From the NCBI RefSeq assembly GCF_040954835.1, contig NC_090709.1, positions 40,218,975-40,282,974 of the forward strand: a DNA stretch of 64,000 nt. Reading direction: 5' to 3'. A program made the translations under genes and the position numbers. Source of the DNA: Lepisosteus oculatus (Eukaryota; Chordata; Actinopteri; Semionotiformes; Lepisosteidae). The notes under the pieces were generated by a model. It was not told the origin of the DNA, ran no database searches, and saw only the letters and a list, made by a program, of their open reading frames with translations. This document shows, one piece after another, positions 1-35,749 of this stretch. Each line of letters opens with the position of its first letter. Position 1 is the stretch's first letter.

Positions 1-185
1 TGTCGCTGTCTCACTGAGCACTGCTACAATATTACTGAGCACTGTCATTATCACAGGTTTCCTGGCAGTCCAGATTGGCCTGTACTTCGTGTCTGTATGT
101 GACTCCCCTTATCACACTAGAAGCAGGAAGAAGCGCTTCAGGCAGGAGGCAGCGACTGTATCCGACACCATCAATATCATCTTGC

Positions 186-2690
186 CTTTCCGGTGACAGA
201 GGCAGCAGACGCAGGCGGAGGAGACCAGGGCCGAGAGCAGGGCGCAGACTGGAGGGACCCACACCAGCAGGGTACAGCACTCACGGTGGGGTTCAGTCCT
301 ACAGGTGGCATTTTCAGACATGTTGTTCAGTTGCTCTGGCGCTACAACAAAAATGTTGTAAAGATCAGAAGATTGCTAGAAGACCGCAGATTATTCTCAC
401 CATTCCATCCATCTCTTATCAAAGAGCCCCTTGTTGTCACAGTAAAACCCAGAACCTCTCCTGGAAACCCTGGGCTCAAGACAGGGCAGAGACAGAGAGA
501 ACAGGACTGTTCTCCTGGTACACAGGACACCAGAGCCAGTCCATCACAGGACGTCACTACACCAGAACTTCAGAACAGTTACAAGCTGTCCTGACAGGAA
601 ACAGGAACAGTCCATCACAGGACACACACACACTCACACAGCCTGGACAGCACACCAGTCCATCACAGGACACACACACACACCCTGGACAGCACACCAG
701 TCCATCACAGGACACAAACTCTCACACACCCTGTACAGGACACCAGTCCATCACAGGACACACACACACACTCACACACCCTGTACAGGACACCAGTCCA
801 TCACAGGACACACACACACACTCACACACCCTGGACAGGACACCAGTCCATCACAGGACACACACACACACTCATACACCCTGGACAGGACACCAGTCCA
901 TCACAGGACACACACACTCACACACCCTGGACAGGACACCAGTCCATCACAGGACACACACACACTCACACACCCTGGACAGGACACCAGTCCATCACAG
1001 GACACACACACACACTCCCACACCCTGGACAGGACACCAGTCCATCACAGGACACACACACACACTCCCACACCCTGGACAGGACACCAGTCCATCACAG
1101 GACACACACACACACTCCCACACCCTGGACAGGACACCAGTCCATCACAGGACACACACACACACTCACACACCCTGGACAGGACACCAGTCCATCACAG
1201 GACACACACACACACACTCACACCCTGGACAGGACACCAGTCCATCACAGGACACACACACTCACTCACACACCCTGGACAGGACACCAGTCCATCACAG
1301 GACACACACACACACACTCACACTCTGGACAGGACACTTAACAAAACTGTTCTCACCTCCTCCATGGAGCCTCAGCCTGGTGCCTTTTCCTATCTGTACC
1401 TCTCCCCTCTCTCTGGTGGTGCAGTAATACAGCCCCTGGTCTGTCTCTGTGACCCCCTCAATCCTCAGACTGGAGGAGTTAGTGGAGGGGTTCAGCACCA
1501 GGCTGAAGCGAGAGTCCGGTCTATTCTTGTAGTCAAAAGGCTCAGTCTGCTGCTCCACGTGGTTCTTACTGGCTAAAATCCTCAGAGCCAGGGTCTCCTT
1601 ACGCTGCAGAAACCAGGTGGTCTCGTGTCGGAGCTCGAGGTCACAGGGCAGGGTGACTGTGTCCCCCAGACTGACTGCTCCAGAGACCACAGCCCACACA
1701 GCAGCGCCTGCAGAGAATTCGGAAAGGACTTTATGCTGGTCTGGAAAGCATAGAAAATCATACTACATCATCGTAAGGCCTATTGGAGACTTTTTACATT
1801 CAGAATTAAAACAGTTTTCAAATTATAGCGAGTTGTGTTCCTATTGAAAATTGCAGAGCTACTTACAATGGCTAGTCGGTAATTATTAGTTGAACAAAGT
1901 CTGGCACTTTGCAAATACTGTAAGTAGGCAGTATGGCTTTTGGGGTCTGAAGCAGGAGGTGTCAGAAAAGTTACCGCAGGGATAACTGGCCAAGCGTTCA
2001 TAGCGACGTCGCTCTTCGATCCTTCGATGTCGGCTCTTCCGATCATTGTGAAGCAGAATTCACCACCAAGCGCTGGATTGTTCACTAATAGCGAACGTGA
2101 GCTGGGTTTAGACCGCCGTGAGACAGGTTAGTTTCGCCCTACTGATGATGTGTTGTTGAGAGTAGCGGGGCACCCCGAGCGAGTAAGCACAGAGTATGTT
2201 CATGTTAGTATTTCCGTACAGTGTAGTTAGATCTTCTGTTGCAGTCAAGCGGGGTCTGTTTTTGTACTTGAGCAATACTGTGGTAATTGTAATTAAGCTC
2301 GACAAACAGGGGGTTGCTTTGGAAATGTGAACACACACACAGACACACACACACACAGATACACACACACACGGTCTCTCAGCCCCTGTCCGCCGTCCAG
2401 CTCTGAACACCCGCACGAAATTTCATCTTTCCTCCTGTTCCGACTCCTTTATCAGTTCAACTGGGTGTAATTTGTATTACCCACCTTAGCAATTCTATTC
2501 GATGCCTTTATTTCTATTTTAATATGAAAATGTAGTTTTATACATTCGGCTTGAAAAACATGGATTGGCTGTACTAATGTCAGATCGGTGATAATAAATG
2601 TCATTTCTTCATGGATCGTGAGGACTGTAAAAACATCTCCTGAGAACAGGCAATCATGTCTTGAAAAACACTAGTCTTAAAGCAAAATAA

Positions 2691-2734
<44 letters not shown>

Positions 2735-6656: not shown

Positions 6657-6743
6657 ATGTGGAGGGTGTTGACTCTGCTCTGTGTCTCCTGCTGTCCTGG
6701 GGGTAAGTAGAGTCACACAGAGCTGAGAGCTCAGGTCTCAAGG

Positions 6744-6778
<35 letters not shown>

Positions 6779-7103
6779 CTAGTTGTGTTGCTGTGTCTCT
6801 CTCTCTCTAGTGTGTGTCTGTGAGGGGGTGTCTAGTTGTGTTGCTGTGTCTCTCTCTCCAGTGTGCATCTGTGAGGGTGTGTATGTGTGTATAATGCTGT
6901 ATTGTGTCCCTGTCTCCTCAGCGCTCCCACTATCGGTGCGTCTGGGTGACTCGGTCACTCTGCCCTGTGATGGGACCAGGGCTACTGGAATCCCTGAGGA
7001 GCAGCTCAGAATCCGCTGGCAGACTCCAGACAGATCAGTGCTTGGTGTCTCCAGTTGGAAACAGTATCCTGGCCCTGACTATAAGAGCAGAGCTGAGGTG
7101 TGA
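6657..7103 (+). pseudogene. Truncated V-set receptor unit (leader plus partial V)
   Basis: The leader exon 6657-6702 (MWRVLTLLCVSCCPG, donor gtaagt) and the V exon from 6922 match the intact gene just downstream. The V sequence runs through LPCDGTRATG and IRWQTPDRS to KSRAEV, then meets a stop at 7101-7103 where the tandem duplication joins. The second half of the V domain, including the YECYYR cysteine, is missing. The leader could still act as an alternative first exon for the gene at 7844, but the unit alone cannot form an Ig fold. Confidence 0.85.
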
Positions 7104-7843: not shown

Positions 7844-7930
7844 ATGTGGAGGGTGTTGACTCTGCTCTGTGTCTCCTGCTGTACTCGGGGTAAGTAGAGT
7901 CACACAGAGCTGAGAGCTCAGGTCTCAAGT

Positions 7931-7961
<31 letters not shown>

Positions 7962-10900
7962 CAAGTTGTGTTGTTGTGTCTCTCTCTCTCCAGTGTGTCT
8001 CTGTGAGGGGGTGTCTAGTTGTGTTGCTGTGTGTCTCTCTCTCTCTCCAGTGTGTGTCTGTGAGGGGGTGTCTAGTTGTGTTCCTGTGTCTCTCTCTCCA
8101 GTGTGTGTCTGTGAGGGGGTGTCTAGTTGTGTTGCTGTGTGTCTGTGAGGGGGTGTCTAGTTGTGTTGCTGTGTCTCAGTCTCTCTCCAGTGTGCATCTG
8201 TGAGGGTGTGTATGTGTGTATAATGCTGTATTGTGTCTCTGTCTCCTCAGCGCTCCCACTATCGGTGCCTCTGGGTGACTCGGTCACTCTGGCCTGTGAT
8301 GGGACCAGGGCTACTGGAATCCCTGAGGAGCAGCTCATTATCCGTTGGCAGACTCCTGACAGACCAGTGCTTGATGTCTCCAGTGGGAAACAGGATCCTG
8401 GCCCTGACTATAAGGGCAGAGCTGAGGTGTCCAGAGAGAAGATCAGACAGGGGAACTTCTCTCTCACCCTCCACAACACAAAGCTCTCAGATGAAGACTA
8501 CTACGAGTGTTATTACAGAGGGAACCATGATCAACTGCAGTTTCTCAATGATGTTCGACTCACTGTGACAGGTAACACATTCCAATACTTATCTTTAATA
8601 ACACGAATCACCTTTTGAACATACAGGCTCACGTCATACAATAAATCTTGAAACCACAGCTCACATTTTTGTGAGGCCGTGAGGATGAGGATGAGGCTGC
8701 CCGACAGTTTGCCCCACTGCACCCAGTCCTCATCAATCCAATTAAACATCCTGTTTGAGCCCCGAAACAGCCCTGGACCAGTGCTCTGGTCTTAAGGTAC
8801 CCGAGACATTGCTGCTCCCAGCTCTGCTCTTGGAGATCTGTAGAAACCCCAAACCTGTCGATTGGACCACAGTATAGCACAGTGCCCCTGCAAATTCATT
8901 CATTCCACTGCCGATACAGGAACAACAAACTTTAAACAACCACTTCCAGTTTAGTAACATTTCTTTTTCTTAAAGATATTCTAAAAAAATCATACAGTAA
9001 TCTTATACAGAATTGCACACTGTCCCTTCATCACTTCCTGAATCAGTTACTGAAACAGTTTTATGTGGTTACACAACTCGCAAACAAGAGAGAAACATGT
9101 GGCTCATCTAGTTCATTTAAGGTGCACAGTGGTCAGCATTGCTGGGGCTCTGGGTTTGATTCCAGATCTGTATTTTAGAAAACAGAATTCCACCTGCTTG
9201 GCCTGCAGGACTTTGAAGATTTAAACATTTAAACCTGCAGGTATCTTTCCTGGATGTGCAGGGAAACAAGACCGATCACATAAATCGTATGTTCTGAGGT
9301 ACAGATAATGTCAACAAATGTTCCATCCAGTTGTAGGCACCAACTCCATGGGTACTGTGTGCTCATGCGCCCTGAAAACATTGATTACATTACTGCTAAA
9401 CAGGAGCACATTTGAACTTTGTACATAATAGGGAGGTACCATAGTTAATTAGCAAAGTCCTAACATGTCCGTGCCCTCCCTAATGGAATTATTAATCAGT
9501 TGATTGTTATTTTAACAAATGATCAATTATAGACAACTGAAGTGTGAGTCTCTGCAGGACAACACTTGCCAAACAAGAAAACCCAATATTTCAAAAAGGA
9601 ATAGAGTTGTAATTCAGAAAACTTGCCCCTTTAAAAAAAAAAAACAAATCCTGGTTTCAGCACCTAATTTGTCTTTTAACATGATGAGAAAGCAGTCATC
9701 CTACGAGCGAAACGATGGCAAAGGATGTTGAGGTTTCGTTAACCTGACTAGATTTAGAGCCCAATAATTCAAAAGGCCACAGCCTCCTCTATATCCAACC
9801 TCTTCTATCCTTGTCCTCTGGGATGTGACCCTCTTCTCTGTTCTGTGAAGCGAGATGAATCCCATGGTGACTCCGTCTGTCTCTTTCAGTTCGGACAGAA
9901 AACCGCAGTGCAGTGTCTGGAGGAGATCTCTCAGTCCCTGTGTTTGATGACGATGAGGTGGAGGTGCTGTTTCACAACACTGTGGTTTATCCAAAGAGCT
10001 CAGACATGCAAAATGAGCATGTCTCAGTGCAGGAGGGATACCTGATCATACACAGAGTCACACAGGCTGATCAGGGCATCTACACTGTGAGAGACAGGAG
10101 AACCAAGAAGGCCGTCAGTGTCATCACTGTCACTGTCACTGTCAAAGGTGAGGAGAGCTCCTACACTCTCATTTCTCCTGTTCCTCAGCTTTGAGCTCTT
10201 AAATTACAACGGAGACAGAGTTGAACAGAGTATATCAAATAAAGTCAGGGTCCTGTCTACAGTTGAGAATGAAAATGTTATATTGGGGTGTTGAAAGACT
10301 CGAGGTTGACTCAAAATCTTAGGTGCAACAGAGAGATATTGAATACAGTTCAGAGAAGGACTCTCATCGATTTTAATCCAAAACTCTACCGTCTCTGTAT
10401 GTCCAGAATTAGGCCCTTTTCGTGTCAGAACTAAAACACATGACTAGTGATAACGAAGAATAAAGAAATATCCTTTAACCAAATACAGTAACATGACTTT
10501 TAAGCTGCATTCAGCATCCTGGGGTTTGGAAAGGCTCTTCATAAATAAGATTTAGTGGTAGTAGCAGTAGTAGTCCCATGTTTGTGAAATGTAAACTCCA
10601 AACATCACTAATCAGTCCAATTATGGTTATTGACTCTTAGAACAGAATTCAGAAAGATGTGCAGCTTCTCAACTTCTGCTAGCTGATCTGCTAGATCTTC
10701 AAGAACTTGAAACTATTTCCTCCTTTTACACTCATATCTTGAAATAAAGTGAAAACAGAAAATAATCAATTTATCTTTCTTCTGTTCATATTTAGTGTCA
10801 GACAACTCAGACAAACAAAATCTACATCATGGTGATAAAGGTAATTTTTCATTTTTTCCCCCAATTTAAGCCTTATTGCAAAATTAGGTACTGGTTTGTA

Positions 10901-11719
10901 GAAGGGTTTCCTTCCAGTCCAGCAGGAAAGTCCTGTTACAATAGGAGCTCCAGTCCAAGTCCAGTAGAACAGTCTGTTACAATAGGAGCTCCAGTCCCAG
11001 TGCAGTAGAACAGTCTGTTACAGTAGAAGCTCCAGTCCCAGTCCAGTAGACCAGTCTGTTACAATAGGAGCTCCAGTCCCAGTGCAGTAGACCAGTCTGT
11101 TACAATAGGAGCTCCAGTCCCAGTCCAGTAGACCAGTCTGTTACAATAGGAGCTCCAGTCCCAGTGCAGTAGACCAGTCTGTTACAATAGGAGCTCCAGT
11201 CCCAGTGCAGTAGAACAGTCTGTTACAATAGGAGCTCCAGTCCCAGTGCAGTAGACCAGTCTGTTACTGTTGCTGTGTTTCCCTGCAGACTCTGACCAGG
11301 GAGACAGGTCTACTGGTGTGACAGGAGGTGTCCTGGGAGCTGCAGTAGTTCTGGCAGCAGCAGCAGGATTTGGGATCTGGTGGTGTATGAGGAGGAGGAA
11401 GTGGCAGTATGGATCATCACTAGGAGGACACAAGGATGAGGGAGCCCCAGAGTCTGATCCTCTTCATACTACAGCACCAGGACCATCTGACCCCAGTGTG
11501 GACACTGCCCAGCACACAGACCCTCCAGTTCTGGGAGAGAGGAGCAGTGTGAGTTATTACACTGAGGACAGACAGGAATCCAGACACTCGGGTCTCCTGG
11601 AGGGACTCATTCCTGCTCAGTGTGTCTGTCAGACTCCGTCAGCTCTGTCACTGGTACTGCAGCCCAGTTCACACAGGGAACCCACCCAGAACCCGGGCCA
11701 TTCTGTGCTCTTTAACTGA
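7844..11719 (+). CDS. Two-Ig-domain transmembrane receptor, complete
   Basis: Five exons joined in phase 1 give 366 residues: leader 7844-7889 (MWRVLTLLCVSCCTR), V-set 8251-8571, second Ig-like domain 9890-10147, hinge 10796-10840, and transmembrane plus tail 11289-11719. The V domain has Cys in TLACDG, Trp in IIRWQT and YYECYYR. The second domain (GGDLSVPVFDDDEVEV to ITVTVTVKG) has no cysteine at all; DQGIYTV stands where D-x-G-x-Y-x-C is usual. The transmembrane stretch is VTGGVLGAAVVLAAAAGFGI, then MRRRK. The tail has two adjacent tyrosines (SVSYYTED) but no standard ITIM. It is probably a plasma-membrane immune receptor with unknown ligand. Its paralogue is the minus-strand gene at 29903-35749. 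A poly(A) signal follows at 11836. Confidence 0.88.
7965..8215. repeat. Intronic minisatellite before the V exon
   Basis: Four to five units of about 50 bp containing tctctctccagtgtgtgtct and gagggggtgtctagttgtg. Each unit carries a pyrimidine tract plus AG, so each resembles a splice acceptor. A shorter version precedes the truncated V at 6780-6880, and the inverted equivalent lies at 34680-34910. Confidence 0.9.
8572..9889 (+). other. Intron of the plus-strand receptor gene
   Basis: 1.3-kb intron between the V and second Ig-like exons. Unlike the equivalent intron of the minus-strand paralogue, it contains no V remnant that I can see. No other gene is recognisable. Confidence 0.6.
10915..11270. 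repeat. Intronic minisatellite, about 41-bp unit
   Basis: About nine units of ggagctccagtcccagtgca plus gtagaccagtctgttacaat, ending just before the acceptor of the transmembrane exon. The paralogous intron at 30765-31840 carries the same unit in inverted orientation with about 26 copies. Confidence 0.95.
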
Positions 11720-15982: not shown

Positions 15983-18900
15983 TCACCCTGACAGGTTCCG
16001 GGCTCGCGGCCGGGGGAGAAGATCGCTCCGCCCGCTTCCGGCCTCTCGGTCCCCGGCCGGCCTCATGATCTCGTACACGTCCTGCTGCCGTCCCTTCCCC
16101 TGGGGACACACACACAGAGGCTGGGCTCAGGAGACGAGCGAGGAAGACGCGGCGTGTCCCGTCTTGTGCCTCTGCAGAACATTAATGCTGGGATTCTCAT
16201 AGCCCTCCGGTCGGCGTCCCTGCCGCTGAAAGCAGACAGAGGCTTGCGATGTCCGGGTCACAGTATCCCACTGCGAACTGTGAGCTGTAACCGCCAGACA
16301 ATTCTAGGACCTCCGAGACAGAATGAGCAGAAGCCCAAGGACTGATCTAGGAGACACTGTACGAGGATGGGGTTTCTGTGTGCTGCTGACAGCTGCCATC
16401 AGTTATTACTGTGAAACAGGCCTCTCTCTGTGCTCACTGTGACACACCTGGGGTCTGAAGAATTTATTCCAGAAGACCAGTACTGCAACATGTGCTTGAA
16501 CTGCTTTGGTATCACTTAACATCCAAATGCCGAAACAGATGCGCAAGATATTCTAATTTTGCATTCTGCCACTTATGAAGGACAACTCAAAAACAAAATA
16601 CCTGCACGAGGCTTCTGTCTCCTTTTCTGTCCTGTGGCCGGCCTGGAAATTAAAACAAAACCTCATAAGACTGGACATAATTCCTCCATTCCTCTCTCTG
16701 CAACGTACACACAGTTACCTGTCTGTCTCAGCTGTGTGTAAAATACTGCTCCCGCTGTCAGTGTTTCACCCCACTGTCAGATCAGGAGCCCTTGGAGGCT
16801 AATAATTAAGCAATAAACAGGTCTCATGGCAAAGAATCCCAAAGAATTCACCTAGTTTCAATATTACAACTGCAGCAATAGGTTCTAAAATGATTTGATA
16901 AACATAATTTCTGCATACCATATCATAAAATTAATTTTTAAAGATTCCAACATATAGGAAGGGATCCACTTGAATCCCTTACAACCCCACCTGGGAGACA
17001 CACAGCGATCATTGTGCACCAGTAACCCCACCTGGGAGACGCACAGCGATCATTGTGCACCAGTAACCCCACCTGGGAGACACACAGCGGTCGTTCTGCA
17101 CCAGTGACCCCACCTGGGAGACACACAGTAATCATTCTGCACCAGTAACCCCACCTGGGAGACACACAGCGATCATTGTGCACCAGTAACCCCACCTGGG
17201 AGACGCACAGCGATCATTGTGCACCAGTAACCCCACCTGGGAGACGCACAGCGATCAATCTGCACCAGTAACCCCACCTGGGAGAGCTTGTCTATTAAAC
17301 TAGTTTGTTTATTAAAAGCAGCAGCGAAAAGGCTACTTTCTTATTTTATTTTTTTATTACACCAAAGACAAAAAAAGGTGTGCACAAAAGTACTTCTTGA
17401 AGGTTTGCAGCTATCAGCATCCAAGCTTCTTCGCAGTCTCAGCTCTCACAGAGCTGTGGTGTGCTTAGAGGTCAAACCTCACACACGTACCGAACAAGAG
17501 CACCAACTCATACAGAGAGAACTGCATTCTGGAAATGACCAGCAGCTGTGACCTGTCACCGGCCCTGGTCACCTTACTGAAGCACTCAACTGGAAATTCT
17601 TGTCAAGAGCGCCACCTACTGGTCGACCAACAGCATATAATTATATTTTTCTGAAATCACTGTTAGCATTGCGCACGGACAGTGTGCAGAGTGAACGCAT
17701 ACCTGGTCTGTCAAAGAGACAGAAGACGAAGCACGATGTCATCAGGGTGGAGAGAGGAGGAGCAACGATCAGGATGATCAGGCATGACCAGCCGATTCCA
17801 GAGGGATGTTCGCCATTTTCCTTCGATGATAATTCTAAAAAGAATTTTTGACTGTTTTTCAGATTTTTATTTTAAATTATTAAATTAGCAAATTATTTTC
17901 TTAATTTACGTATTGTTTTATTTTTTTACATTGATATCAGACTGGTGAGGTCAGTAAGCAGGTTGTTCTCTCCTACACTGATCCTCAGTCTGGTTCTGTT
18001 TCCGATGTGAATCTCTCTCTCTGCAGTACAGATCATCCCTCTTCACAAATAAACTGTTCTCACCTTCTCCATGGAGCCTCAGCCTGGTGCCTTTTCCTAT
18101 CTGTACCTCTCCCCTCTCTCTGGTGGTGCAGTAGTACAGTCCCTGGTCTGTCTCTGTGACCCCCTCAATCCTCAGACTGGAGGAGTTAGTGGAGGGGTTC
18201 AGCACCAGGCTGAAGCGAGAGTCCGGTCTTATCACGTAGTAAAAAGGCTCAGTCTGCTGCTCCACTTGGTTCTTACTGGCTATAATCCTCAGAGCCAGGG
18301 TCTCGTTACGCTGCAGAAACCAGGTGGTCTCGTGTCGGAGCTCGAGGTCACAGGGCAGGGTGACTGTGTCCCCCAGACTGACTGCTCCAGAGACCACAGC
18401 CCACACAGCAGCGCCTGCAGAGGTTCGAGAAAGGAGAGCATTTGGCTACTCGGCAGAGAAAATGGCGTTGCATGATCCCGAACATTCTTCTAGGGAGGGG
18501 AAAGTGGGAAAACTGCTTTCAGCCCAGAATCGGCACAGATTCTGCTGAACTCAACAGGACACCCAGCTGAGTTCATATAATGCCTTGCGAAAGGATTCTG
18601 ACCCTGGCAAAGATTCCACGCTGTGTTACTTTAAAGTTCGCAGTGATGACACTTCAAAGTAGCAATACAAATTTGTTGCAAAAAACGTCCACCTCCACAC
18701 GTTCAAAGCAAAACAGAAACAGAGGGAAGTAAGTAGATCATCCATAGGAAAGAAGAAAAGGAAAAGTCACGACTGCTTAAGTATTCCAAACCTTCGTTTT
18801 GCACTGGCCAGACGCAATTAATTCCAGGTGCACAAAACTATTTTAACACGTCGCACAAACGGTTGAGTGGCCTCTGTCGGTTTGCGTCAATTGAGTTTCT

Positions 18901-19450
18901 CACGATTTCTGAATGAACACACGTTTATTCATCTCTACTTCAAGGACCTAAATGTGAAAGCCAGCGAAAAAGCTAAATAAATCGAATACGCTTTGCAGCA
19001 CAGAGGATTCTCCGATCATTTCGGGAGGCAGCTTAAAGTTGGCTACAGCTGTTCTTCCTGCATGAACTGTGAACAGTACATCTTTAGTAATAAAGTATTA
19101 AGCTGCACAGAGAAATTAAGAGCCCATATTGCACTTTAATGTCTCTGTGCATTTTCTCTCCCTTTAGGGAAATCTTGAAATCCCACTATCTTGCAGAACG
19201 GCCTGGTTACAACGTCGCCAGACACCACACTTTTCACACAGAATGAAAAGCGCCAAGAACTTCTCTCCCCCTGCCCAAGCCTGGAGATTTCCAAAGTCAT
19301 GTTTTAAGTGTTCGAGTCTCCCTCATCATATCAGCCCTTGTCGTTGATACAGACGCTCCTGAAATAAATGTCATGACAGGACACCTTTGATGATTTAAGG
19401 TACTCACTGGCGGAGAGGAACAGAGCAAGGGGGCTGCACGGCGCCGACAT
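15983..19450 (-). CDS. NITR-like V-set receptor, minus strand
   Basis: Probable single-V immune receptor. Exons: leader 19408-19450 (MSAPCSPLALFLSA, donor gtgagt), V-set 18064-18414 (351 nt; TLPCDLE, TTWFLQR, DQGLYYC, J-like IGKGTRLRL) and transmembrane 17703-17834 (core GWSCLIILIVAPPLSTLMTS). These three join in phase 1. Two possible cytoplasmic end exons both start in phase 0: 16127-16225, with EGYENPSI and a stop at 16127, and 15983-16099, with QQDVYEIMRPAG and a stop at 15983. The latter aligns with the last exon of the gene at 22073-25229. A linking exon (phase 1 to 0) is expected between 16226 and 17702, but I could not place it, so the tail is incomplete. The YEIM and YENP motifs may be phosphotyrosine docking sites, which is inference. 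It is head-to-head with the gene at 22073. Confidence 0.75.
16982..17285. repeat. Tandem repeat, about 41-bp unit
   Basis: About seven units of agtaaccccacctgggagac plus acacagcgatcattgtgcacc, inside the predicted intron downstream of the transmembrane exon of the minus-strand receptor. No similarity to the other arrays was noticed. Confidence 0.95.
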
Positions 19451-22010: not shown

Positions 22011-22072
22011 ACACCTCCTTAATAAGCTTCAATGTCAGGTGTCATTTTTGCAGTGGTGAGACAGAAGCCGAG

Positions 22073-25000
22073 ATGGACGGACGCAAGGTGGGCTCTACTC
22101 TTTTCGTCACCTGTGAGTACTTATTCAGATCAGCATTTTACACCAAAAAGCCGCCTCAAAAGTCTTCCTTGACGTGCTGCGCGTTTTCTGGGCGCGCCGA
22201 TCTAGAAACGACACTTCACAATCTTTCCCGTCTTCAAATGAAGGCTCAAGTGTCAGTACGAGTAACTTAAAACACCTTTTCACCTTCTGTTTGTTTGTGC
22301 AGTTGTTTGAGAGCTTAGTTCTAGCCTTATTAGTACAGTAAACCTTTACTGAACAGAACTGACACTTGTCACATGTGGTTTCAATTAGTCACTGAAACAA
22401 GCTCTGCTTTCAAGTAACAAGCAACACACTTGGGAAACGAGCACAGAGAAAGACTTTATAGGTCAAAATTAAATGCAACAGAAAATGTAGGAGAAATATC
22501 CCGTAGTAAGAGTGTGGCATGAAATGGAAGTTTTCAAACACGCCGGTTAACTACATTCGATGTTTTTAAAATGGTGTTGGAATTTCCCTACTGCTGCTGC
22601 AGCTGCATATCTGCCTACAGACGTGCCAGATTCGAACACAGACAAAGCAACAGTGAGCTATTCCTCGAGAAGCAGAGAACTGTAATTTTTTTATTTTACA
22701 GCTATAATGTGCAACAAAACCTAGTTCCACGGTTTCTTCTAGGGTGAAGAGAAACAACGACTGCCTATTTCTCAGATTAGGGGGTTAAAAGAACATTTTT
22801 CAGGAAAATCTCTGATGGAAATATACAGCCATCTCAAACAACCCAAGACCATCTTACACTCCCAGATCTCTGAAATCAGATGCGAGAGTCGTCGGACATT
22901 CTCAGGACCGCCGAGCAACACTGAGTAACCAAATGCTCTCCTTTCTCGAACCTCTGCAGGCGCTGCTGTGTGGGCTGTGGTCTCTGGAGCAGTCAGTCTG
23001 GGGGACACAGTCACCCTGCCCTGTGACCTCGAGCTCCGACACGAGACCACCTGGTTTCAACACCATAACGAGACCCTGGCTCTGAGGATTTTAGCCAGTA
23101 AGAACCAAGTGGAGCAGCAGACTGAGCCTTTTTACTACGTGATAAGACCTGACTCTCGCTTCAGCCTGGTGCTGAACCCCTCCACTGCCTCTCCTGATCT
23201 GAGGATTGAGGGGGTCACAGAGACAGACCAGGGGCTGTACTACTGCGCCACCAGAGAGAAGGGGGAGATTCACATTGGACAACGGAGAAGACTTCAAATT
23301 GGTGAGAATAAAGCTATCTTCCCCCCCTAGGCATGTAGGTAGGTACTGGTACAGTTCAATGACCCAGAGTGAGGAGTGCACACTTTTTATACAGTAGGAA
23401 TAACTGGTAACAGGACAGTAACGAAACCATTTATCCATCTCCGATTTAGAAAACACGTTTCACGTAGTTTCCCCATGAACCACCACAGTGTATCAGCAAT
23501 AACCACTAACAGCTGAAGGACGCCTTGTTTTTGAAGAGGGTGTATTCTGTGTGGAAAAGAACAGAGTCCTGTTTCGGCTCACGCTACCGGTTCCGAGCTG
23601 ACAGGGAGGACCACAAGCGATCGGGCACGGGGTCGGCTATCTGGACAGCACCTGGGCCTTGGTGCTTCATGTGTCTCACCACCGCGCGACTCCTGGCTTG
23701 AAATTCAACGCCAAACCGAGCTAAATCGCAGAGACAGATGGGTTTGCTCTGCAGCAACGTCACTTGGATTCCAGAGATCACGGCATTCGTTTCGTGACCT
23801 ACTTCCACAGCGTGCTTTCTCAAGCGAGAATGTTGTGTGCGCTGACCTACGTGCCCCTGTGTTCATTCAAATGTCCAACCAGCACCAGCTTCACCATCTT
23901 CACCATCCTCCTTGTCTTTCCCAAACCCACTGACAATTTAAGTGGTGACGAAGTGGTGACGAAGTGGTGACGAAGAAGAAAATCACTATTTCCGATCAAA
24001 AAGAAAAAGAACGTGATCGAGATCAGATCGCGGGATCGTTATGCCTGTCGTCGCTAGAGACGACTAGTGAAGGAATCTGTGCACCGACTGATACACAATC
24101 GCACACACCTGACACTGCCACACAGCTGTGCACACACACGGATACACAACTTGACCCATCATGGCCTCCTAATCACCCCCCTCTCTGAACTGGCCCCATC
24201 CCTCTGCTCCCCTCCCCACTGATGGATGGTGTGTGGGGAGCGTTCTGGAGCATCATTCGCTGACTGGCACACTTTGGCTGCCGTGGCGTCACATTGGTGG
24301 CGGTAGTGGGATCCTGTGTGAACTGTAAACAGCTTCAGAAGAGGAATAATAAGGGGATTCTTATGTTTAACTTACTAGAGAAGGAAAGGGAGGCCCCCGG
24401 CCCTCCCCAGCACCCCGGAATCGGACTGCCCTGCCTGATCGTGCTGCTGTCGGCCCTCCCCCTGTCCGCCCTGGCCTCGTCCTGCTGCGTCTTCTTCATC
24501 CTCCTCCGCGGGAGAGGTAGGGCCGCCCTCTTCCTCCCTCCGCTGCGTGACAACTGCTCCCGACACCGATTTCCCGTCCTCTCAGCTCGGCCTCAATCTT
24601 TTCATAACAGGCAAAGGACAACGTGGCGCTCGGCACCGGAGCCCAAGACGGGATGCGGCACAGGTACGGTCCGTTCGGCCATTTCCAATGAATTCGGCAG
24701 CGTCGGGATATCTGACAGTCGCGCCTGGCAGTGTTGGGATTGTCCAAACCTGCGACAGAGCCTGCGTTCTCCATCCTTTCCAACGGCTGGTTTCGAGAAC
24801 TACTGAGATCACCAGATACAAGCCCCAAGCATTCCAGTTCCGAGCCTCTTGATACTGTGGTTGAGCACCAGGTAAGCGACACCTCGGGGTGCTCCCCTGC
24901 AGCTGTGGGGCCGTGCTCGCCAAGCCTGCGGGAAGAGACCGAGCCGAGGGGAGAGATCTGAAGCAGAGAGCAGGATTCAAGAACAGGGGCTGGAGCAGCA

Positions 25001-25229
25001 GAAACAAGTCTCGAAGCCGCAGTTGCCAGCGGTTGAGTTAAAATCTGTGTCACCAGGTCGGGCCACAGTCCCGCAGATTCCCCCCCAAAAAAGGAACGTG
25101 CGTCTTTCTCCACGCTGCTCGTGCGCGACTGAACTCTTGTGTTGCTTTCAGGGGGAGAACGGAAGTGCGCCGTACGAGAACTTGCACCCCGCCTCTGAGC
25201 CCCGACGACCCGGGGGCAGGGGTTTCTGA
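22073..25229 (+). CDS. NITR-like V-set receptor, complete candidate
   Basis: Leader 22073-22112 (MDGRKVGSTLFVT, donor gtgagt). V-set 22960-23301, with TLPCDLE, TTWFQHH, DQGLYYC and a degenerate J-like IGQRRRLQIG that lacks the GxGT core. Transmembrane 24379-24516 (GIGLPCLIVLLSALPLSALA), then a basic exon 24611-24663 (GKGQRGARHRSPRRD). These are phase-consistent. Downstream, a phase-0 exon near 24759 can be read two ways: a frame ending TAGFENY and stop at 24806, or, from 24761, an in-frame exon to 24871. The last exon, 25152-25229, encodes APYENLHPASEP and a stop. Including 24761-24871 gives 253 residues; skipping it gives 216. No charged residue lies in the membrane core, which argues against pairing with an ITAM adaptor. 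YENL is an ITIM-like or adaptor-binding motif; function is inferred only. Confidence 0.8.
23302..24378 (+). other. Intron between the V and transmembrane exons
   Basis: 1.08-kb intron of the plus-strand NITR-like gene. It has a short CA-rich stretch at 24095-24150 and no recognisable internal gene. Confidence 0.6.
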
Positions 25230-28379: not shown

Positions 28380-29965
28380 GTCCACTGTCTGTCCCCAGTG
28401 TCCGATAACTCCCTCAGCTCCTGTCCAGACTGCAGTCTGTCCGTCCCCAGTGTCCGATAACTCCCTCAGCTCCTGTCCAGCCTGCAGTCTGTCCGTCCTC
28501 AGTGTCCGATAACTCCCTCAGCTCCTGTCCAGACTGCAGTCTGTCTGTCCTCAGTGTCCGATAACCCCCTCAGCTCCTGTCCAGACTGCAGTCTGTCTGT
28601 CCTCAGTGTCCGATAACCCCCTCAGCTCCTGTCCAGCCTGCAGTCCGTCTGTCCTCAGTGTCCGATAACTCCCTCAGCTCCTGTCCAGACTGCAGTCCGT
28701 CTGTCCTCAGTGTCCGATAACCCCCTCAGCTCCTGTCCAGACTGCAGTCCGTCTGTCCTCAGTGTCCGATAACCCCCTCAGCTCCTGTCCAGACTGCAGT
28801 CCGTCTGTCCTCAGTGTCCGATAACCCCCTCAGCTCCTGTCCAGACTGCAATCCGTCTGTCCTCAGTGTCCGATAACCCCCTCAGCTCCTGTCCAGACTG
28901 CAGTCCGTCTGTCCTCAGTGTCCGATAACCCCCTCAGCTCCTGTCCAGACTGCAGTCCGTCTGTCCTCAGTGTCCGATAACCCCCTCAGCTCCTGTCCAG
29001 ACTGCAGTCCGTCTGTCCTCAGTGTCCGATAACCCCCTCAGCTCCTGTCCAGACTGCAGTCTGTCTGTCCTCAGTGTCCGATAACCCCCTCAGCTCCTGT
29101 CCAGACTGCAGTCTGTCTGTCCTCAGTGTCCGATAACCCCCTCAGCTCCTGTCCAGACTGCAGTCTGTCTGTCCTCAGTGTCCGATAACCCCCTCAGCTC
29201 CTGTCCAGACTGCAGTCTGTCTGTCCTCAGTGTCCGATAACCCCCTCAGCTCCTGTCCAGACTGCAGTCTGTCTGTCCTCAGTGTCCGATAACCCCCTCA
29301 GCTCCTGTCCAGACTGCAGTCTGTCTGTCCTCAGTGTCCGATAACTCCCTCAGCTCCTGTCCAGACTGCAGTCTGTCTGTCCTCAGTGTCCGATAACCCC
29401 CTCAGCTCCTGTCCAGACTGCAGTCTGTCTGTCCTCAGTGTCCGATAACTCCCTCAGCTCCTGTCCAGACTGCAGTCTGTCTGTCCTCAGTGTCCGATAA
29501 CTCCCTCAGCTCCTGTCCAGACTGCAGTCTGTCTGTCCTCAGTGTCCGATAACCCCCTCAGCTCCTGTCCAGACTGCAGTCTGTCTGTCCTCAGTGTCTG
29601 ATAACCCCCTCAGCTCCTGTCCAGCCTGCAGTCTGTCTGTCCTCAGTGTCCGATAACCCCCTCAGCTCCTGTCCAGACTGCAGTCTGTCTGTCCTCAGTG
29701 TCCGATAACTCCCTCAGCTCCTGTCCAGACTGCAGTCCGTCTGTCCTCAGTGTCTGATAACCCCCTCAGCTCCTGTCCAGACTGCAGTCTGTCTGTCCTC
29801 AGTGTCTGATAACCCCCTCAGCTCCTGTCCAGACTGCAGTCTGTCTGTCCTCAGTGTCTGATAACCCCCTCAGCTCCTGTCCAGACTGCAGTCTGTCTGT
29901 CCTCAGTGTCTGATAACTCCCTCAGCTCCTGTCCAGCCTGCAGTCTGTCTTTCCTCAGTGTCTGA
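28380..29965 (-). repeat. 52-bp minisatellite derived from a receptor tail
   Basis: About 30 units of 52 bp (tgtccgataaccccctcagc, tcctgtccagactgcagtct, gtctgtcctcag). On the minus strand a unit reads SGQELRELSDTEDRQT, closely matching the cytoplasmic tail of the adjoining receptor (SGEEQRELSEAEESQ and LSEVSDTEERQTAG). Since 52 is not a multiple of 3, the frame shifts at each unit; the gene's stop codon lies in the first unit. The rest would be 3' UTR if transcribed. Confidence 0.95.
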
Positions 29966-32900
29966 TACCTCACTCAGATCTTCCCTTTGAACTGGAGGTG
30001 CCTCATTGTTTGTCAAACAAGCAGTGTCCACACTGGGCTCAGGTGGTCCTGGTGATAAACCATTAAGAGGAGCAGACTCCTGGCTCTCCTCAGCTTCTGA
30101 TAACTCCCTCTGCTCCTCTCCAGACTCCGTGTCTGCATGCTGCTGTATTAAATCATTAAGAGGAATAATCTCTGGGTCTCCCTCATCCTGGTCTGGCTGT
30201 CGTCCTTCTGGTGCTAATCCATCCTGCTGATTCCTCCTCCTCCTCCTCCTCCTCCTCCTACACCACCGGATCCCAAATCCTGCTGCTGCCAGAACTACTA
30301 AGGCTCCCAGGACACCAAATACACCTGCTATCACACCAGTAGACCTGTCTCTGTGGTCAGAGTCTGCAAGGAAACACAGCAACACCTGGATCACATCTAG
30401 ATCACAGTCAGTCTGTTCTCCATCACTTCCTGAAGGACACACTCTCACATCACATCAACCTGGAGAACATCTAGATCACAGTCAGTCTGTTCTCCATCAC
30501 TTCCTGAAGGACACACTCTCACATCACACCAACCGTGAGAACATCTAGATCACAGTCAGTCTGTTCTCCACCACTTCCTGAAGGACACACTCTCACATCA
30601 CATCAACCTGGATCACATCTAGATCACAGTCAGTCTGTTCTCCATCACTTCCTGAAGGACACACTCTCACATCATACCAACCTGGAGAACATCTAGATCA
30701 CAGTCAGTCTGTTCTCCATCACTTCCTGAAGGACACAGTCTCACATCAACCTGGAGAACAGGACTGTTCTACTGCACTGGGGCTGGAGCTCCTATTGTAA
30801 CAGACTGGTCTACTGCACTGGGACTGGAGCTCCTACTGTAACAGACTGTTCTACTGGACTGGGACTGGAACTCCTATTGTAACAGACTGTTCTACTGCAC
30901 TGGGACTGGAGCTCCTAGTGTAACAGACTGTTCTACTGCACTGGGACTGGAGCTCCTATTGTAACAGACTGTTCTACTGCACTGGGACTGGAGCTCCTAT
31001 TGTAACAGACTGTTCTACTGCACTGGGACTGGAGCTCCTATTGTAACAGGACTGTTCTACTGGACTGGGACTGGAGCTCCTATTGTAACAGACTGTTCTA
31101 CTGCACTGGGACTGGAGCTCCTATTGTAACAGGCGGTTCTACTGCACTGGGGCTGGAGCTCCTATTGTAACAGACTGTTCTACTGGACTGGGACTGGAGC
31201 TCCTATTGTAACAGACTGGTCTACTGGACTGGGACTGGAGCTCCTATTGTAACAGACTGTTCTACTGGACTGGGACTGGAGCTCCTATTGTAACAGGACT
31301 GTTCTACTGCACTGGGACTGGAGCTCCTATTGTAACAGGCTGTTCTACTGCACTGGGGCTGGAGCTCCTATTGTAACAGACTGTTCTACTGGACTGGGAC
31401 TGGAGCTCCTACTGTAACAGGACTGTTCTACTTGACTGGGACTGGAGCTCCTATTGTAACAGACTGTTCTACTGCACTGGGACTGGAGCTCCTATTGTAA
31501 CAGACTGGTCTACTGCACTGGGACTGGAGCTCCTATTGTAACAGACTGTTCTACTGCACTGGGACTGGAGCTCCTATTGTAACAGACTGGTCTACTGCAC
31601 TGGGACTGGAGCTCCTATTGTAACAGACTGTTCTACTGGACTGGGACTGGAGCTCCTATTGTAACAGACTGTTCTACTGCACTGGGACTGGAGCTCCTAT
31701 TGTAACAGACTGTTCTACTGCACTGGGACTGGAGCTCCTATTGTAACAGACTGTTCTACTGGACTGGAGCTCCTATTGTAACAGACTGTTCTACTGGACT
31801 GGAGCTCCTATTGTAACAGACTGTTCTACTGCACTGGTAGACTTAGCAACACTACATAATGAAGCTGCAATATTAAATTACAGAAACATTACCTTTATCT
31901 CTTTGATGAGGATTTTTTTTGTCTGACACTAGAAAAGAAGAGAAAGAAATCAGTTTTGTATTTGCTGTTGTGTCTTTTTTGAAGATATCTGACTGTGAAA
32001 AGAGGATATGGCTCTTTTTGTCTGGAAAATCTTCTTGATCATCTATCCAGAACACAGCCATACTGTGTGGCTGCAACAGTATAAACGTACAGACAACAGA
32101 GCAGACAATGTGGTGTAACTCACTGGTGTTGATTCAGATCAGGCACTGAACTGATTGTTCTAACTGGTCCACATGAATGTCTCATAATTCAAATTACTAC
32201 CCGAACATCATGAAAGCAGGACTTTTACCCAGTTCTACCTTGTAAGATATTACAAACATGAAAAGATCGACATCTTTCAGTAAACTGATTTCAGACTTAG
32301 TAACAGAAATGTAAATGATTTGTACGTAAAGATGTGAGGATTATATACTGTATTTTCGGTTTTAAAAACCAGGTGACAACAGAAACTTTATATGACCCCC
32401 TGTATTCTGTTAAAGGATATTTCTGTGCACATCTTCATCACCAGTCATGTGTTTAGGTTCAGCAGTGAAAGGATCTGATTCTGGAAACAGACTCCAGAGA
32501 TTTCTGGGGTGAATTCTATGAGTGTTTCCTCTCTATCATCTGTTGCTAGCTATTTCTCCTTCTCCAAACTGTATCCTGCATTTCTCTCAGTGTCAGACAC
32601 ACCTGAAATCTTCAATCAGCCTCGAATCTTTCAACACCCCAATATAACATTTCCATTCTCAGCTGTAGACAGGACCCTGACTTTATTTGATATAATCTGT
32701 TCAACTCTGTCTCCTTTGTAATTTAAGAGCTCAAAGCTGAGGAACAGGAGAAATGAGAGTGTAGTAGCTCTCCTCACCTTCGACAGTGACAGTGATGACA
32801 CTGATGGTCCTGTTCATCCTCCTATCTCTCACAGTGTAGCTGCCCTGATCAGCCTGCGTGAGGGTGTGGATGACCAGAGAGCCGTTCTGCACTGAGACAT

Positions 32901-35749
32901 GCTCATTTCGGGTGTCTGAGCTCTTTGGATAAACCACAGTGTTGTGAAACAGCACCTCCACCTCATCGTCATCGAACACAGGGACTGAGAGATCTCCTCC
33001 AGACACTGCACTGCGGTTCTCTGTCCGAACTGAAAGAGACAGACGGAGTCACCATGAACTTCATCTCACTTCACAGAACACCTGGATCTGCTTGTGTGGA
33101 TCAGCTGAGAGAAGAGGAGCCACATTCCACAGGACAAAGAGAGTACAGGCTGGATATAAAGGAGGCTCGGTGTACCAGAGGTGCTGGACAGTAAGTCACT
33201 CAGGGTGGAGGGGTGGGCAGGAGAGTAGAGAGGGACACGTGTGTGACTGTCCAGCTGGAGGTTGAAGACAAAGGACAGTGACCCCTGATTACAGACGAGG
33301 GGAAATGAGTCTGTCAGCTGGAGCTCCCAGGTGCTTCCAGGGGTGGGACACTACAATATCCAGTCTAGCATTTTAATGGGCGACGGGATTAGACACATGC
33401 TAAAATACTTGAAATGATTATTACAGACCCGTTTTCTTACTGACTCAACTGATTTCATGTAAATTCTGTTTCTGCTCTCTCATGTCCCTCATTTCTTTTT
33501 AAACTTGAATTAATCACAGTTTTGTATCCTCAAACCAAAGTGTTCTCAGAGAAAATACCGTACATTTAGTTCCATGTCACCCTGGCAGCTTGTGTGGGTC
33601 TCATGAGTAAGGAGCTCTGAGGTCCACAGGCAGGTGTTCTCATACCCTGATGTTACAATTTCACACAGCCGTGAACACCACTGAGACCTGACTGTGGCTC
33701 CTTAAATCTTACACCTGTGTGCGTGTTAAAATGAATCATGAACTACTTACTATTACAGAGGAAAACATTGTGTGACTGTAACCCGTGACAGTGAGTCCAA
33801 CATCACGAGGAAACTCCAGCTTATCATGTTTCCAGTAGACAGCAAACGCAAATATGGATCTAGGAGGCCCTGACCCAGCGAGTCCACCAGCTAGAGTCCA
33901 GAAGAGGTTGTGGACAAAGTGCTTCCATTTTCTAACGGCTTGTTCCTGCTGAAGTTCGCAGCGCTAACAGGCTGAGCAGACCAGACCAGACTCCTCCTGG
34001 GGGGCTCCCAGGCGCTCAGTGAAGATATATAATCCCTCTTGTGTATCCTGGGGCTGTCTGCTCCCAGCAGGAGGCGCTGGTGAGGCTTTGCTCCAAGTCT
34101 GAAGCCCTTGTGGGTTTTAGACTTCTTCTATAACAAGGATTGCTTTGCTCGGTGCAATGCTGTATAACGTTTTTAGAAATGTTTAACAAAGAAACGTTGA
34201 TGACCTGTTCGCTTCAACTTTATCAGAGTTAGGAATTAGTTTGGAGGGCACCCTAAATATATGTGTAAATGTAAACTATGAACTGTTTATTTGTAAGAAG
34301 AGGTAACAGAATGTGTTACCTGTCACAGTGAGTCGAACGTCATCGAGAAACTGCAGGTGATCATGGTTCCCTCTGTAATAACAATTGTATTCAGCTTCAT
34401 CTGAGAGCTTTGTGTGGTGGAGGGTGAGAGAGAAGTTCCCCTGTCTGATCTTCTCTCTGGACACCTCAGCTCTGCTCTTATAGTCAGGGCCAGGATACTG
34501 TTTCCCACTGGAGACATCAAGCACTGGTCTGTCTGGAGTCTGCCAATGGATTCTGAGCTGCTCCTCAGGGATTCCAGTAGCCCTGGTCCCATCACAGGGC
34601 AGAGTGACCGAGTCACCCAGAGGCACCGATAGTGGGAGCGCTGAGGAGACAGAGACACAATACAGCATTATACACACATACACACCCTCACAGACACACA
34701 CAGGAGAGAGAGACACAGCAACACACCTAGACACCCCCTCACAGAAACACACTGGAGAGAGAGAGACACAGCAACACAACTAGACACCCCCTCACAGACA
34801 CACACTGGAGAGAGAGACACAGCAACACACCTAGACACCCCCTGACAGACACCCACTGGAGAGAGAGACACAGCAACACACCTAGACACCCCCTGACAGA
34901 CACAAAGAAACAGACATATTCACAAACACATCTCTGCCCAACACATCATGGGCAGTGCCTTACCATCCATCCAGGAAATCTACAACACCAGGAGTCTGAC
35001 AAAAGCCACCAGAATTATGTCTGACCCCACTCACCCCAGTCATAACTTGTTTGTCCCCCTACCATCTGGCAGAAGGTTCCGGACACTCCAGTCGCACACG
35101 ACTAGACTCCAGAACAGCTTCTTCCCCAGAGCCGTCAAGCTGGTGACGCCCCCACTCCCTCCCATCATGCTGTGATCTCTCCTCACTGCTTCCTGTCCCC
35201 ACAACGACTGTACTCCAACACTACTACACACACGACACCTGAATGCAAGCCGAAACTGAACTTAAAACTGGACTACTTGTACTCTTTATTAATCACTGTA
35301 TTGTTTTTGCACTGTTCGTCGAATTACTTTTGCACTGTTTTTGTCCTGTTTGTGTACTTTTCTCTGCTGGCGTGTTTGCACAGTTTCTTCAGCACTGCAG
35401 AGCGATCAAGAGTGATGGTTACCTAGGACGATGACCTCAACTTCACCAAGAAGCTTCATCAGGCCTCCCATCCCTCTGTAATAACACTCGTACAGGCCAG
35501 TGTCGGAGAAGGAGGCCTGGAGGAGGCTCAGGGAGAAGTCCCCCTGTCTGACCTTCTCCCGGGACACCTGGGCTCTGGGCTCGAACCCGGGGCCGGGAAA
35601 GGCTCGTCCGCTGTGGAAATCCAGCACAGGCCTCGTGGGGGTTTTCCACTGGACGTGTAACTGGTCCTCGGGGATCCCAGCGGCTGGTGTCCCATCACAG
35701 GGCAGAGTGACCGAGTCCCCGACTGTCAGGAACACTGGGACTGGAGCTG
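29903..35749 (-). CDS. Three-Ig-domain transmembrane receptor, leader not found
   Basis: Minus-strand paralogue of the gene at 7844-11719. Exons: V-A 35423-35749 (TLPCDGTPAAG, VQWKTPTRP, LYECYYRG), V-B 34320-34640 (TLPCDGTRATG, IHWQTPDRP, YNCYYRGNHD), cysteine-free Ig-like 32778-33029, hinge 31893-31928, and transmembrane plus tail 29903-30363. All are phase 1 to 1 with intact frames (327, 321, 252 and 36 nt, then 461 nt to the stop). The membrane segment is VIAGVFGVLGALVVLAAAGF. The tail starts with nine arginines, is acidic after that and has no tyrosine. I found no leader upstream of V-A. V-A and V-B are separated by a LINE fragment, so they may belong to separate transcripts. Probable surface immune receptor; ligand unknown. 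Confidence 0.78.
30231..30260 (-). repeat. Coding GGA-type microsatellite (poly-Arg)
   Basis: A CCT/TCC run on the plus strand encodes nine consecutive arginines just inside the membrane in the minus-strand receptor. The plus-strand paralogue has only RRRK there, so length variation would change the stop-transfer charge. Confidence 0.85.
30391..30755. repeat. Tandem repeat, about 75-bp unit
   Basis: Five units of acatctagatcacagtcagt, ctgttctccatcacttcctg and aaggacacactctcaca, in the intron just upstream (minus-strand sense) of the transmembrane exon and adjacent to the 41-bp array. It is absent from the plus-strand paralogue. Confidence 0.95.
30765..31840. repeat. Intronic minisatellite, about 41-bp unit, expanded
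   Basis: About 26 units of ctgttctactgcactgggac plus tggagctcctattgtaacaga. In gene orientation it occupies the same intron and has the same sequence as the nine-unit array at 10915-11270. Confidence 0.95.
32100..32777 (-). other. Intron of the minus-strand receptor
   Basis: Unique-looking, AT-rich intron between the cysteine-free Ig-like exon and the hinge exon. Nothing else is recognised. Confidence 0.5.
33783..33850 (-). pseudogene. Decayed V-exon 3' fragment
   Basis: On the minus strand, KHDKLEFPRDVGLTVTG aligns with the ends of the intact V exons (NHDHLQFLDDVRLTVTG), followed by a donor-like GG/gttac. Nothing upstream resembles the rest of a V domain. It lies in the intron between V-B and the cysteine-free domain and suggests that a further V exon once existed here. 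Confidence 0.65.
34680..34912. repeat. V-intron minisatellite, inverted copy
   Basis: About five units of tagacaccccctcacagaca plus cacactggagagagagacac. Reverse complement of the array upstream of the plus-strand V exon (7965-8215), so it holds the same position in the gene. Confidence 0.93.
34930..35400 (+). mobile_element. LINE 3' end (reverse-transcriptase C-terminus and tail)
   Basis: The frame reads RIMSDPTHPSHNLFVPLPSG then RRFRTLQSHTTRLQNSFFPR and AVKL, the C-terminal zone of L2/Rex1-type LINE polyproteins. A stop and a TTTTGCACTG-rich 3' region follow. It is 5'-truncated and sits between V-B and V-A of the minus-strand receptor, where a leader for V-B might have been expected. Confidence 0.8.

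Follow-up and report, generated by a model that had tools for sequence, protein, structure and literature searches.

In the Xenopus CEACAM family, conversion of the ceacam N exons is described as limited to the exon coding for the binding domain and its splice sites, with poorly conserved flanking introns; the tails of partners are opposing, and putative pairs are oppositely oriented (PMC5112662). In SIGLEC11 and SIGLEC16, paired receptors arranged head to head, repeated conversion homogenises the region that encodes the V-set (PMC5701461). The NITRs, novel immune-type receptors of bony fish reported for extreme V divergence, form large clusters of genes with the exon order L-V-(I)-TM-C1-C2, and most members carry ITIMs; a one-V form exists with a J or J-like end, defined as FGXG, TXLX(V/L/I), or a combination of parts of these (PMC2442602). 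In salmonid NILT1/2, Ig exons are 96% identical in protein and tails 67% (PMC3022915). In the literature searched, no description of a system of paired receptors like those of the CEACAMs and Siglecs was found for fish.

The window analysed here is a stretch of 64,000 nucleotides from Lepisosteus oculatus (NC_090709.1, positions 40,218,975 to 40,282,974). It contains five Ig-receptor loci, each with a V exon, and both the orientation series (minus, plus, minus, plus, minus) and the two interleaved architectures proposed in the first-pass annotation were seen again. Family A, with a single V and a J-like tail, comprises A1 (minus), A3 (minus), and A4 (plus); family B, with a V and a domain lacking cysteines, comprises B2 (plus) and B5 (minus). 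The parts of these loci are the following:

186..341, minus strand: A1 transmembrane exon, type I backbone, from reading frame and splice sites; donor GC (AAAG/GCAAGA)
1357..1707, minus strand: A1 V exon with J-like GKGTRLRL; Pfam V-set E 1.2e-13
1882..2151, plus strand: 28S rRNA-derived fragment within A1 intron 1; Rfam RF02543, 121.6 bits
3018..3048, minus strand: A1 leader exon, conserved in A40050, an inverted copy at 40.05 Mb
6657..7101, plus strand: B2 duplicated leader (6657-6702) and truncated V (from 6922); 97% tandem duplication
7844..7889, plus strand: B2 leader exon
8251..8571, plus strand: B2 V exon, B7/BTN-like; Pfam V-set E 2.8e-13; open CDS
9890..10147, plus strand: B2 cysteine-free Ig-like domain D2; 0 Cys, weak Pfam matches only
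10796..10840, plus strand: B2 short hinge exon
11289..11719, plus strand: B2 transmembrane and tail exon; ITIM regex without a match
15983..16099, minus strand: A3 terminal tail exon C2, GKGRQQDVYEIM... (YxxM, no ITIM); phase 0
16602..16642, minus strand: A3 tail exon C1, phase 1 to 0; similar candidate in A40034
17703..17834, minus strand: A3 transmembrane exon, type II backbone
18064..18414, minus strand: A3 V exon; Pfam V-set E 2.7e-13
19408..19450, minus strand: A3 leader exon; phase-1 donor 5/7, complete CDS open
22073..22112, plus strand: A4 leader exon
22960..23301, plus strand: A4 V exon; Pfam V-set E 6.6e-10; likeness to A1/A3 falls past ~nt 300
24379..24516, plus strand: A4 transmembrane exon, type II backbone
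24611..24663, plus strand: A4 tail exon C1; 53 nt, phase 1 to 0
25152..25229, plus strand: A4 terminal tail exon C2, GENGSAPYENL... (no ITIM)
29903..30363, minus strand: B5 transmembrane and tail exon lacking tyrosine; a 52-bp minisatellite overlaps its 3' end
31893..31928, minus strand: B5 hinge exon
32778..33029, minus strand: B5 cysteine-free Ig-like domain D2
34320..34640, minus strand: B5 V exon; Pfam V-set E 5.4e-13
35423..35746, minus strand: B5 second full V exon (V'); Pfam V-set E 4.2e-8

No further Ig exon was found among nine ORFs from the 36-64 kb region checked by Pfam, and a scan of the whole window with profiles built from these same exons gave no match at E<0.05 beyond the parts listed. 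Among viral contigs, no relative of the A V exon was confirmed.

The A3 (227 aa) and A4 (216 aa) genes consist of five exons each and are open to the stop, with no frame break; an extra middle exon considered for the A4 tail was dropped, as C1 and C2 join in phase. The extent first given to A1 was corrected: the gene runs past the left edge of the window, and its tail exon, which carries VQYATL, lies ~1.7 kb outside (C14:40,217,275 downwards). The A1 transmembrane peptide is identical in A40050, and so is the type I tail; a C1 exon for A1 was searched for and not found. The A1 leader matches the phase of the V exon only via a weak donor (T/GTGGGT). An automatic leader scan overlooked the leaders of A1 and A4, which fell short of its hydrophobicity cut-off. 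The C2 tail exon of A3 differs from that of A40034 by one residue. Structure prediction for the A3 V exon was unusable (mean pLDDT 31).

The A genes resemble NITRs in their N-terminal V domain, and the NITR plan permits a one-domain form (PMC2442602). The TRLRL of A1 and A3 matches the J-like form, while RRLQI of A4 does not, and FGXG is present in none of the three; where NITRs have FGxG, the J motif here reads IGKGTRLRL, and, unlike NITRs, A3 and A4 have transmembrane segments without a basic residue (PMC2442602). A single V, a short C1 exon, and a phase-0 last intron are shared with salmonid NILTs, but the A V domains contain two canonical Cys only and lack the additional CX3C pair of one-domain NILTs (PMC3022915). 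The J-like end of the V domain is what would be expected if the V exons were gene segments for somatic rearrangement. This reading is extremely improbable: the J-like part lies in the same exon and is followed by a splice donor, and a search of the window for heptamer-spacer-nonamer signals gave 0 matches at the thresholds applied.

An ITIM regex matched all three type I tails (A1 and its relatives) and none of the five type II tails (A3, A4, and their relatives). Type II tails mostly contain one YEIM or YEN motif; in A40029 the tyrosine is lost, and the TQYENV of L034 is also compatible with an ITSM. The A3 and A4 transmembrane segments have no basic residue such as would recruit an activating adaptor, and activation would therefore rest on the YEIM/YEN motifs only. 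Judged from these motifs, the A receptors may be of opposing function.

The V exons of A1, A3, and A4 are 88-97% identical at the DNA level (A1 and A3 differ at 11 of 351 positions), while their introns and leaders cannot be aligned, and in five of six flank comparisons the match is no better than the best shuffle. Shared sequence continues for 13 bp beyond the A1/A3 donor and for 37 bp ahead of the A3/A4 acceptor. The same contrast is seen in synonymous divergence, with dS of 0.030 in the V exon versus 1.0 in the transmembrane exon for A1/A3, 0.074 (V core) versus 1.03 for A3/A4, and, across the three genes, 0.03-0.2 versus about 0.8-1.0 for the membrane exons. Inside the V exon, mismatches between A4 and A3 rise from 15/300 to 12/34 (Fisher p 1e-6), and those between A4 and A1 from 21/300 to 12/34 (p 1.5e-5). 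It could be supposed that purifying selection alone has held the V exons alike since old duplications: V domains are constrained, and in eight local V exons pooled pN is lower than pS in all three exon parts. But synonymous sites are almost unchanged too (2.5 changes at 86 sites for A1/A3), and the identity of A4 breaks within the exon; selection on amino acids is therefore insufficient, and we consider this explanation very improbable.

The first-pass annotation saw in the locus growth by inverted duplication. In the form of whole-gene inverted or tandem duplication, with V exons alike since the copies are young, this view accounts for some of the data. B2 and B5 are inverted homologues beyond the V exon as well (D2 and flanks 83%, D2 coding 90%), the order B2+ A3- / A4+ B5- is mirror-like around 20.7-21.5 kb, the flanks of A1 and its inverted copy A40050 are 98.9% and 97.5% identical, and A3 and A40034 can be aligned far downstream at 87-91%. 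Recent inverted duplication does not explain the likeness of A1, A3, and A4, because that likeness is restricted to the V exon, the introns and membrane exons being old and divergent, and because the same-strand pair A1/A3 is alike too. Applied to these three genes, whole-gene duplication is already contradicted by the exon/flank contrast, and as a general account of the alike V exons it is improbable. Since A1 and A3 lie on the same strand, inverted orientation is not required for sharing.

Strict alternation of five genes has a chance of 1/16. Along the chromosome, 104 merged A and B V matches gave 49 opposite neighbours out of 88 (permutation p 0.41, coin-flip p 0.17); the count took in 49 of 53 A matches and 57 of 76 B matches (genome match counts being lower bounds), and left aside matches on other contigs and, on C14, two A matches interrupted by a stop and one weak B match. 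Alternation as a functional rule is ruled out, as neighbours on the chromosome alternate no more than chance, and the strict series is not special in itself. Alternating orientation is best read as a local outcome of inverted block duplication. Shared divergent promoters, also suggested earlier, found no support; leader ATGs are separated by ~2.6 kb in the A3/A4 pair and by ~3.6 kb in A1/B2. The A3-A4 interval contains a minisatellite (19653-20653).

Exchange of V exons between backbones was followed genome-wide, with type I and type II labels assigned by eye from transmembrane sequences. In the 40.5-45.6-Mb group, all 20 cross-type pairs have V exon identities of 92.7-99.1%, and in none of them does a flank align over 300 bp (the 80 bp adjoining the exon being excluded), which also stands against whole-gene duplication; within types, flanks of >300 bp align in 10/16 pairs upstream and 15/16 downstream. 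In the local group, exon identity in 12 cross-type pairs is 79.7 to 97.1%, and in one of them the downstream flank aligns over 374 bp at 79%; long alignable flanks are found in only 1/9 within-type pairs, and the flank contrast does not separate backbone types there. AU tests on V exons, with 19 of 30 fetched A loci sampled, rejected type I as one clade (dlnL 362, p 1.8e-66), and seven local genes form one clade (99/98) in the V-exon tree. For the transmembrane exons, the local clade was rejected (p 0.03) and the type I clade was not (p 0.35), in a tree of 38 columns only, the best version of which has no single type I clade. At the DNA level, V exons are interchangeable between the two backbone types, the breakpoints lying at the exon or within it, and leaders, introns, and membrane and tail exons have histories separate from those of the V exons.

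The pooled pS of the eight local V exons is 0.322 in the 5' half, 0.091 in FR3, and 0.307 in CDR3 with the start of J, and an SPD variant is common to A4 and two otherwise distant genes, as a patchwork. The sharp edges close to both exon ends would suit a V exon that acts as a mobile cassette, entering other genes by ectopic duplication or template switching with no conversion of a resident exon. This is unlikely, since fully modelled A genes hold the V exon at one and the same place and phase, and sub-exon patches (the FR3 block, the A4 tail, the SPD variant) are easier to obtain by conversion of resident exons.

The A genes, we propose, are probably paired receptors of an NITR-like kind, in which gene conversion confined to the binding exon keeps that exon matched. 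Their backbones would belong to two old types, type I ending in an ITIM tail and type II lacking one, and repeated ectopic conversion between copies, some inverted and some on the same strand, would move the V exon across them; inhibitory and non-inhibitory receptors would in this way retain one binding face. The matching might in turn be driven by a pathogen or self ligand common to both receptors. The B genes, with a B7-like V and a cysteine-free domain, are interspersed neighbours of the A genes. Whether the system extends to a chromosome-wide NITR-like supercluster, where ITIM and PI3K/Grb2-motif backbones repeatedly receive copies of a single V exon, or of its FR3 core, from each other and so give opposing signals from one binding face, is in our judgement evenly balanced.

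The combination of a converted binding exon and divergent flanks is the signature described for ceacam301/303 of Xenopus, although CEACAM is another gene family, its non-inhibitory partners use ITAM or ITAM-like motifs where YEIM/YEN is found here, and in the present locus same-strand genes share the exon too (PMC5112662). The converted region of SIGLEC11/16 spans several exons, in contrast to one exon or part of it here (PMC5701461). If the proposal is true, tyrosine-motif tails without charged membrane residues would be a second route for paired receptors, and exon-restricted conversion would extend to NITR-like receptors. It would also offer a plan for ligand hunting, as a single V ectodomain would be expected to recognise what several opposing receptors bind. 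Among the eight local genes, similarity is high enough for direct measurement of conversion tracts.

The B2 gene (366 aa) has five exons, open to the stop with no frame break. Two leaders were read in B2 because segments 5922-6882 and 7109-8071 are 97% alike, and the double leader was corrected to this duplication; the first V has a stop after AEV. In B5, a leader like that of B2 was looked for and none was found; a possible relic of a third V lies at 33781-33828 (E 0.03). The V exons of B2 and B5 are 90% identical. In several family B pairs, the V exon diverges more than the flanks, and a tree test for exon exchange in this family was not significant (p 0.28).

When the B5 V exon was searched against PDB sequences, CD276, MXRA8, MOG, CD4, and BTN were among the top matches. 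The V is in this respect like that of B7/butyrophilin proteins, but a cysteine-free Ig-like domain comes after it, and we know of no B7/BTN protein with such a domain behind the V. In the SLAM/CD2 family, the cysteine-free V-like domain is the membrane-distal one; in family B, it is second, behind a cysteine-bearing V. The cysteine-free domains of B2 and B5 match V-set below Pfam's cut-off (E 0.008 and 0.0008), and for one of them the best Pfam match is the herpes gE model (E 0.0016).

The search covered the 1.2-Gb genome (813 contigs), with the window at C14:40,218,975-40,282,974. The kinds of receptor present would fit a bony fish. The first-pass annotation had described two interleaved gene architectures, and this description was borne out: in the window, loci of family A (A1, minus strand; A3, minus; A4, plus) alternate with loci of family B (B2, plus; B5, minus). 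In family A genes, a leader is followed by a single V exon whose end is J-like, then by a membrane exon and a pair of short tail exons; A3, with a predicted length of 227 aa, and A4 are complete. In family B genes, of which B2 is complete, the V is B7/BTN-like and is followed by an Ig-like domain lacking cysteines (D2), a hinge, and a membrane/tail exon. Genome-wide, nine of 12 D2 matches have zero cysteines, and three have two or three. Two exon positions were as follows:

3018-3048, minus strand, leader of A1
35423, minus strand, edge of V', the second full V exon of B5

In a self-comparison of the window, the likeness among A1, A3, and A4 was limited to the V exon. Of 351 positions, 11 distinguish the V exon of A1 from that of A3; A3 and A4 differ at more, and the first 99 bp are the same in all three. 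Flank similarity scored no higher than the best shuffle in five of six comparisons, the exception being 37 bp upstream of the A3/A4 acceptor; the A1/A3 likeness extends 13 bp past the donor. Membrane-exon dS among the three genes is 0.8-1.0, while V-exon dS is 0.030 for A1/A3 and, against A4, 0.19-0.20 for the whole exon and 0.07-0.08 for its core. Past nt 300 of the A4 V exon, mismatches jump from 15/300 to 12/34 against A3 (p 1e-6) and from 21/300 to 12/34 against A1 (p 1.5e-5). Old duplicates carrying a young V exon, with a break inside the A4 exon, thus point to gene conversion.

The A3 V exon used as a query matched 53 places in the genome, 51 of them on C14. Across eight local V exons, the DNA of the block from RPDSRF to LYYC is little changed (pairwise pS 0 to 0.17), and the 5' halves and tails are more divergent than this block (pooled pS 0.322 for the 5' half, 0.091 for FR3, and 0.307 for the tail). 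An ASPD/DSPD DNA variant is common to A4 and two otherwise distant genes. Thirty A loci were then taken with 1.5-kb flanks, and their membrane exons were sorted by eye into two backbone types, I (including A1) and II (including A3 and A4), both of which occur in the 40.0-40.25-Mb cluster and in the 40.5-45.6-Mb group. Exons and flanks were compared for every same-group pair among 16 loci, leaving out the 80 bp adjoining the exon; the 50-75 bp upstream of the V exon are often common between A loci. In the 40.5-45.6-Mb group, V exons were 92.7-99.1% identical in 20 of 20 cross-type pairs, none of which had a flank alignment longer than 300 bp; flanks of within-type pairs aligned over more than 300 bp in 10/16 cases upstream and 15/16 downstream. 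The exon/flank contrast does not separate the types in the local group, where exon identity in the 12 cross-type pairs is 79.7 to 97.1%, one pair has a 374-bp downstream match (79%), and long flanks are found in one of nine within-type pairs (A1 and A40050, its inverted copy at 40.05 Mb). When 19 V exons were placed in a tree, the seven local genes grouped as a single clade (99/98), and a clade uniting type I was rejected (p 1.8e-66). The short membrane alignment rejects a local clade (p 0.03) and does not reject a type I clade (p 0.35), though its best tree does not unite type I.

Exchange of the V exon between A copies by ectopic conversion is well supported by these data. Copies, some inverted and some not, would swap the exon, and the tracts would stop at or within it because the introns are already unalignable.

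Type I genes (A1, A40050, A40009, and L036) have a phase-0 last exon with an ITIM: VQYATL in A1, whose tail is identical to that of A40050 across 54 residues, LQYATL in A40009, and LQYATI, followed by an ITSM-like TTYAEI, in L036. Small-database searches relate the tails of A1 and A40009 (E 4e-12) and of A40009 and L036 (E 3e-6). In type II genes (A3, A4, A40034, A40029, and L034), the phase-0 last exon has no ITIM and at most one tyrosine motif: DVYEIM in A3 and A40034, PYENL in A4, and TQYENV, which also fits the ITSM pattern, in L034. The tyrosine is lost in A40029, whose tail weakly matches that of A4 (E 0.05, small database). PI3K is recruited by YxxM, and Grb2 by YxN. Taken with the V-exon likeness, the tail motifs indicate that one binding exon is common to the inhibitory-looking A1 and the ITIM-free A3 and A4.

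The A genes of the window resemble CEACAM and Siglec paired receptors as outlined in PMC5112662 and PMC5701461. By analogy with Xenopus CEACAM and with Siglecs in the same sources, selection may retain the exchange, since a non-inhibitory partner that matches an inhibitory receptor could help withstand pathogens that target the latter. A literature search outside subscription journals for conversion between paired receptors gave mainly papers on mammal and frog CEACAM, Siglec, CD300, KIR, and FcR and no fish paper by title, a weak hint that such conversion may be new for fish. Judged by sequence, membership of family A in the NITRs is plausible: the single V, ITIM, and C1/C2 tail-exon organisation, and the J-like end in A1 and A3, agree with NITRs as outlined in PMC2442602, but the FGXG form is absent. 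NILT identity does not fit, as family A lacks CX3C.

Between the inverted copies B2 and B5, dS is 0.048 in V and 0.18 in D2, and their V-D2 introns are barely alignable (score 36 versus a shuffle maximum of 29). A tree test for exon exchange in family B was not significant. In a distant B group (L066-L080), V exons of several pairs diverge more than their own flanks, at synonymous sites too (L077/L079: exon 89.4%, flanks 96-98%); over 55 pairs, pooled pS is 0.122 and pN/pS is 0.46. One possible explanation is V exchange with diverged donors.

Strict alternation, as shown by the five loci, has a chance of 1/16 for five genes. For C14, 49 of 53 A and 57 of 76 B V-exon matches were merged to 104; 49 of 88 within-cluster neighbour pairs lie on opposite strands (strand shuffling, p 0.41; coin flips, p 0.17), so the alternation is a local pattern. 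The suggested growth by inverted duplication was upheld in part. The order B2+ A3- / A4+ B5- is mirror-like, with midpoints of homologous parts between 20.68 and 21.46 kb, and wherever neighbouring A genes on C14 lie on opposite strands, they are divergent (ten of ten pairs, five of them from copies of one palindrome). An old inverted block duplication fits both observations. The likeness among A1, A3, and A4, confined to the V exon, is not accounted for by recent inverted duplication.

This palindrome, of ~60 kb and order B- A- A+ B+, has five copies (L019, L021-L028, L030) dispersed across 15 Mb of C14, and identity of the V flanks between copies reaches 99.8%:

C14:43.88-43.94 Mb, palindrome copy
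C14:53.71-53.77 Mb, palindrome copy
C14:55.36-55.41 Mb, palindrome copy
C14:57.76-57.82 Mb, palindrome copy
C14:58.51-58.57 Mb, palindrome copy

Several smaller features lie within the window genes. A1 intron 1 contains a 28S rRNA fragment (1882-2151); the 98.9% identity of the upstream flank in the inverted copy suggests that the fragment is older than the 40.05-Mb inverted duplication. B2 owes its second leader and its truncated first V to a recent partial tandem duplication (5922-8071, 97%). In B5, the sequence at 35000-35300, between both V exons, presumably resembles a LINE 3' end, and a third V exon may have left a remnant at 33781-33828 (tblastn E 0.03). A minisatellite at 28385-29967 (52-bp unit, ~30 copies) overlaps the B5 3' coding end, from which it appears to have grown.
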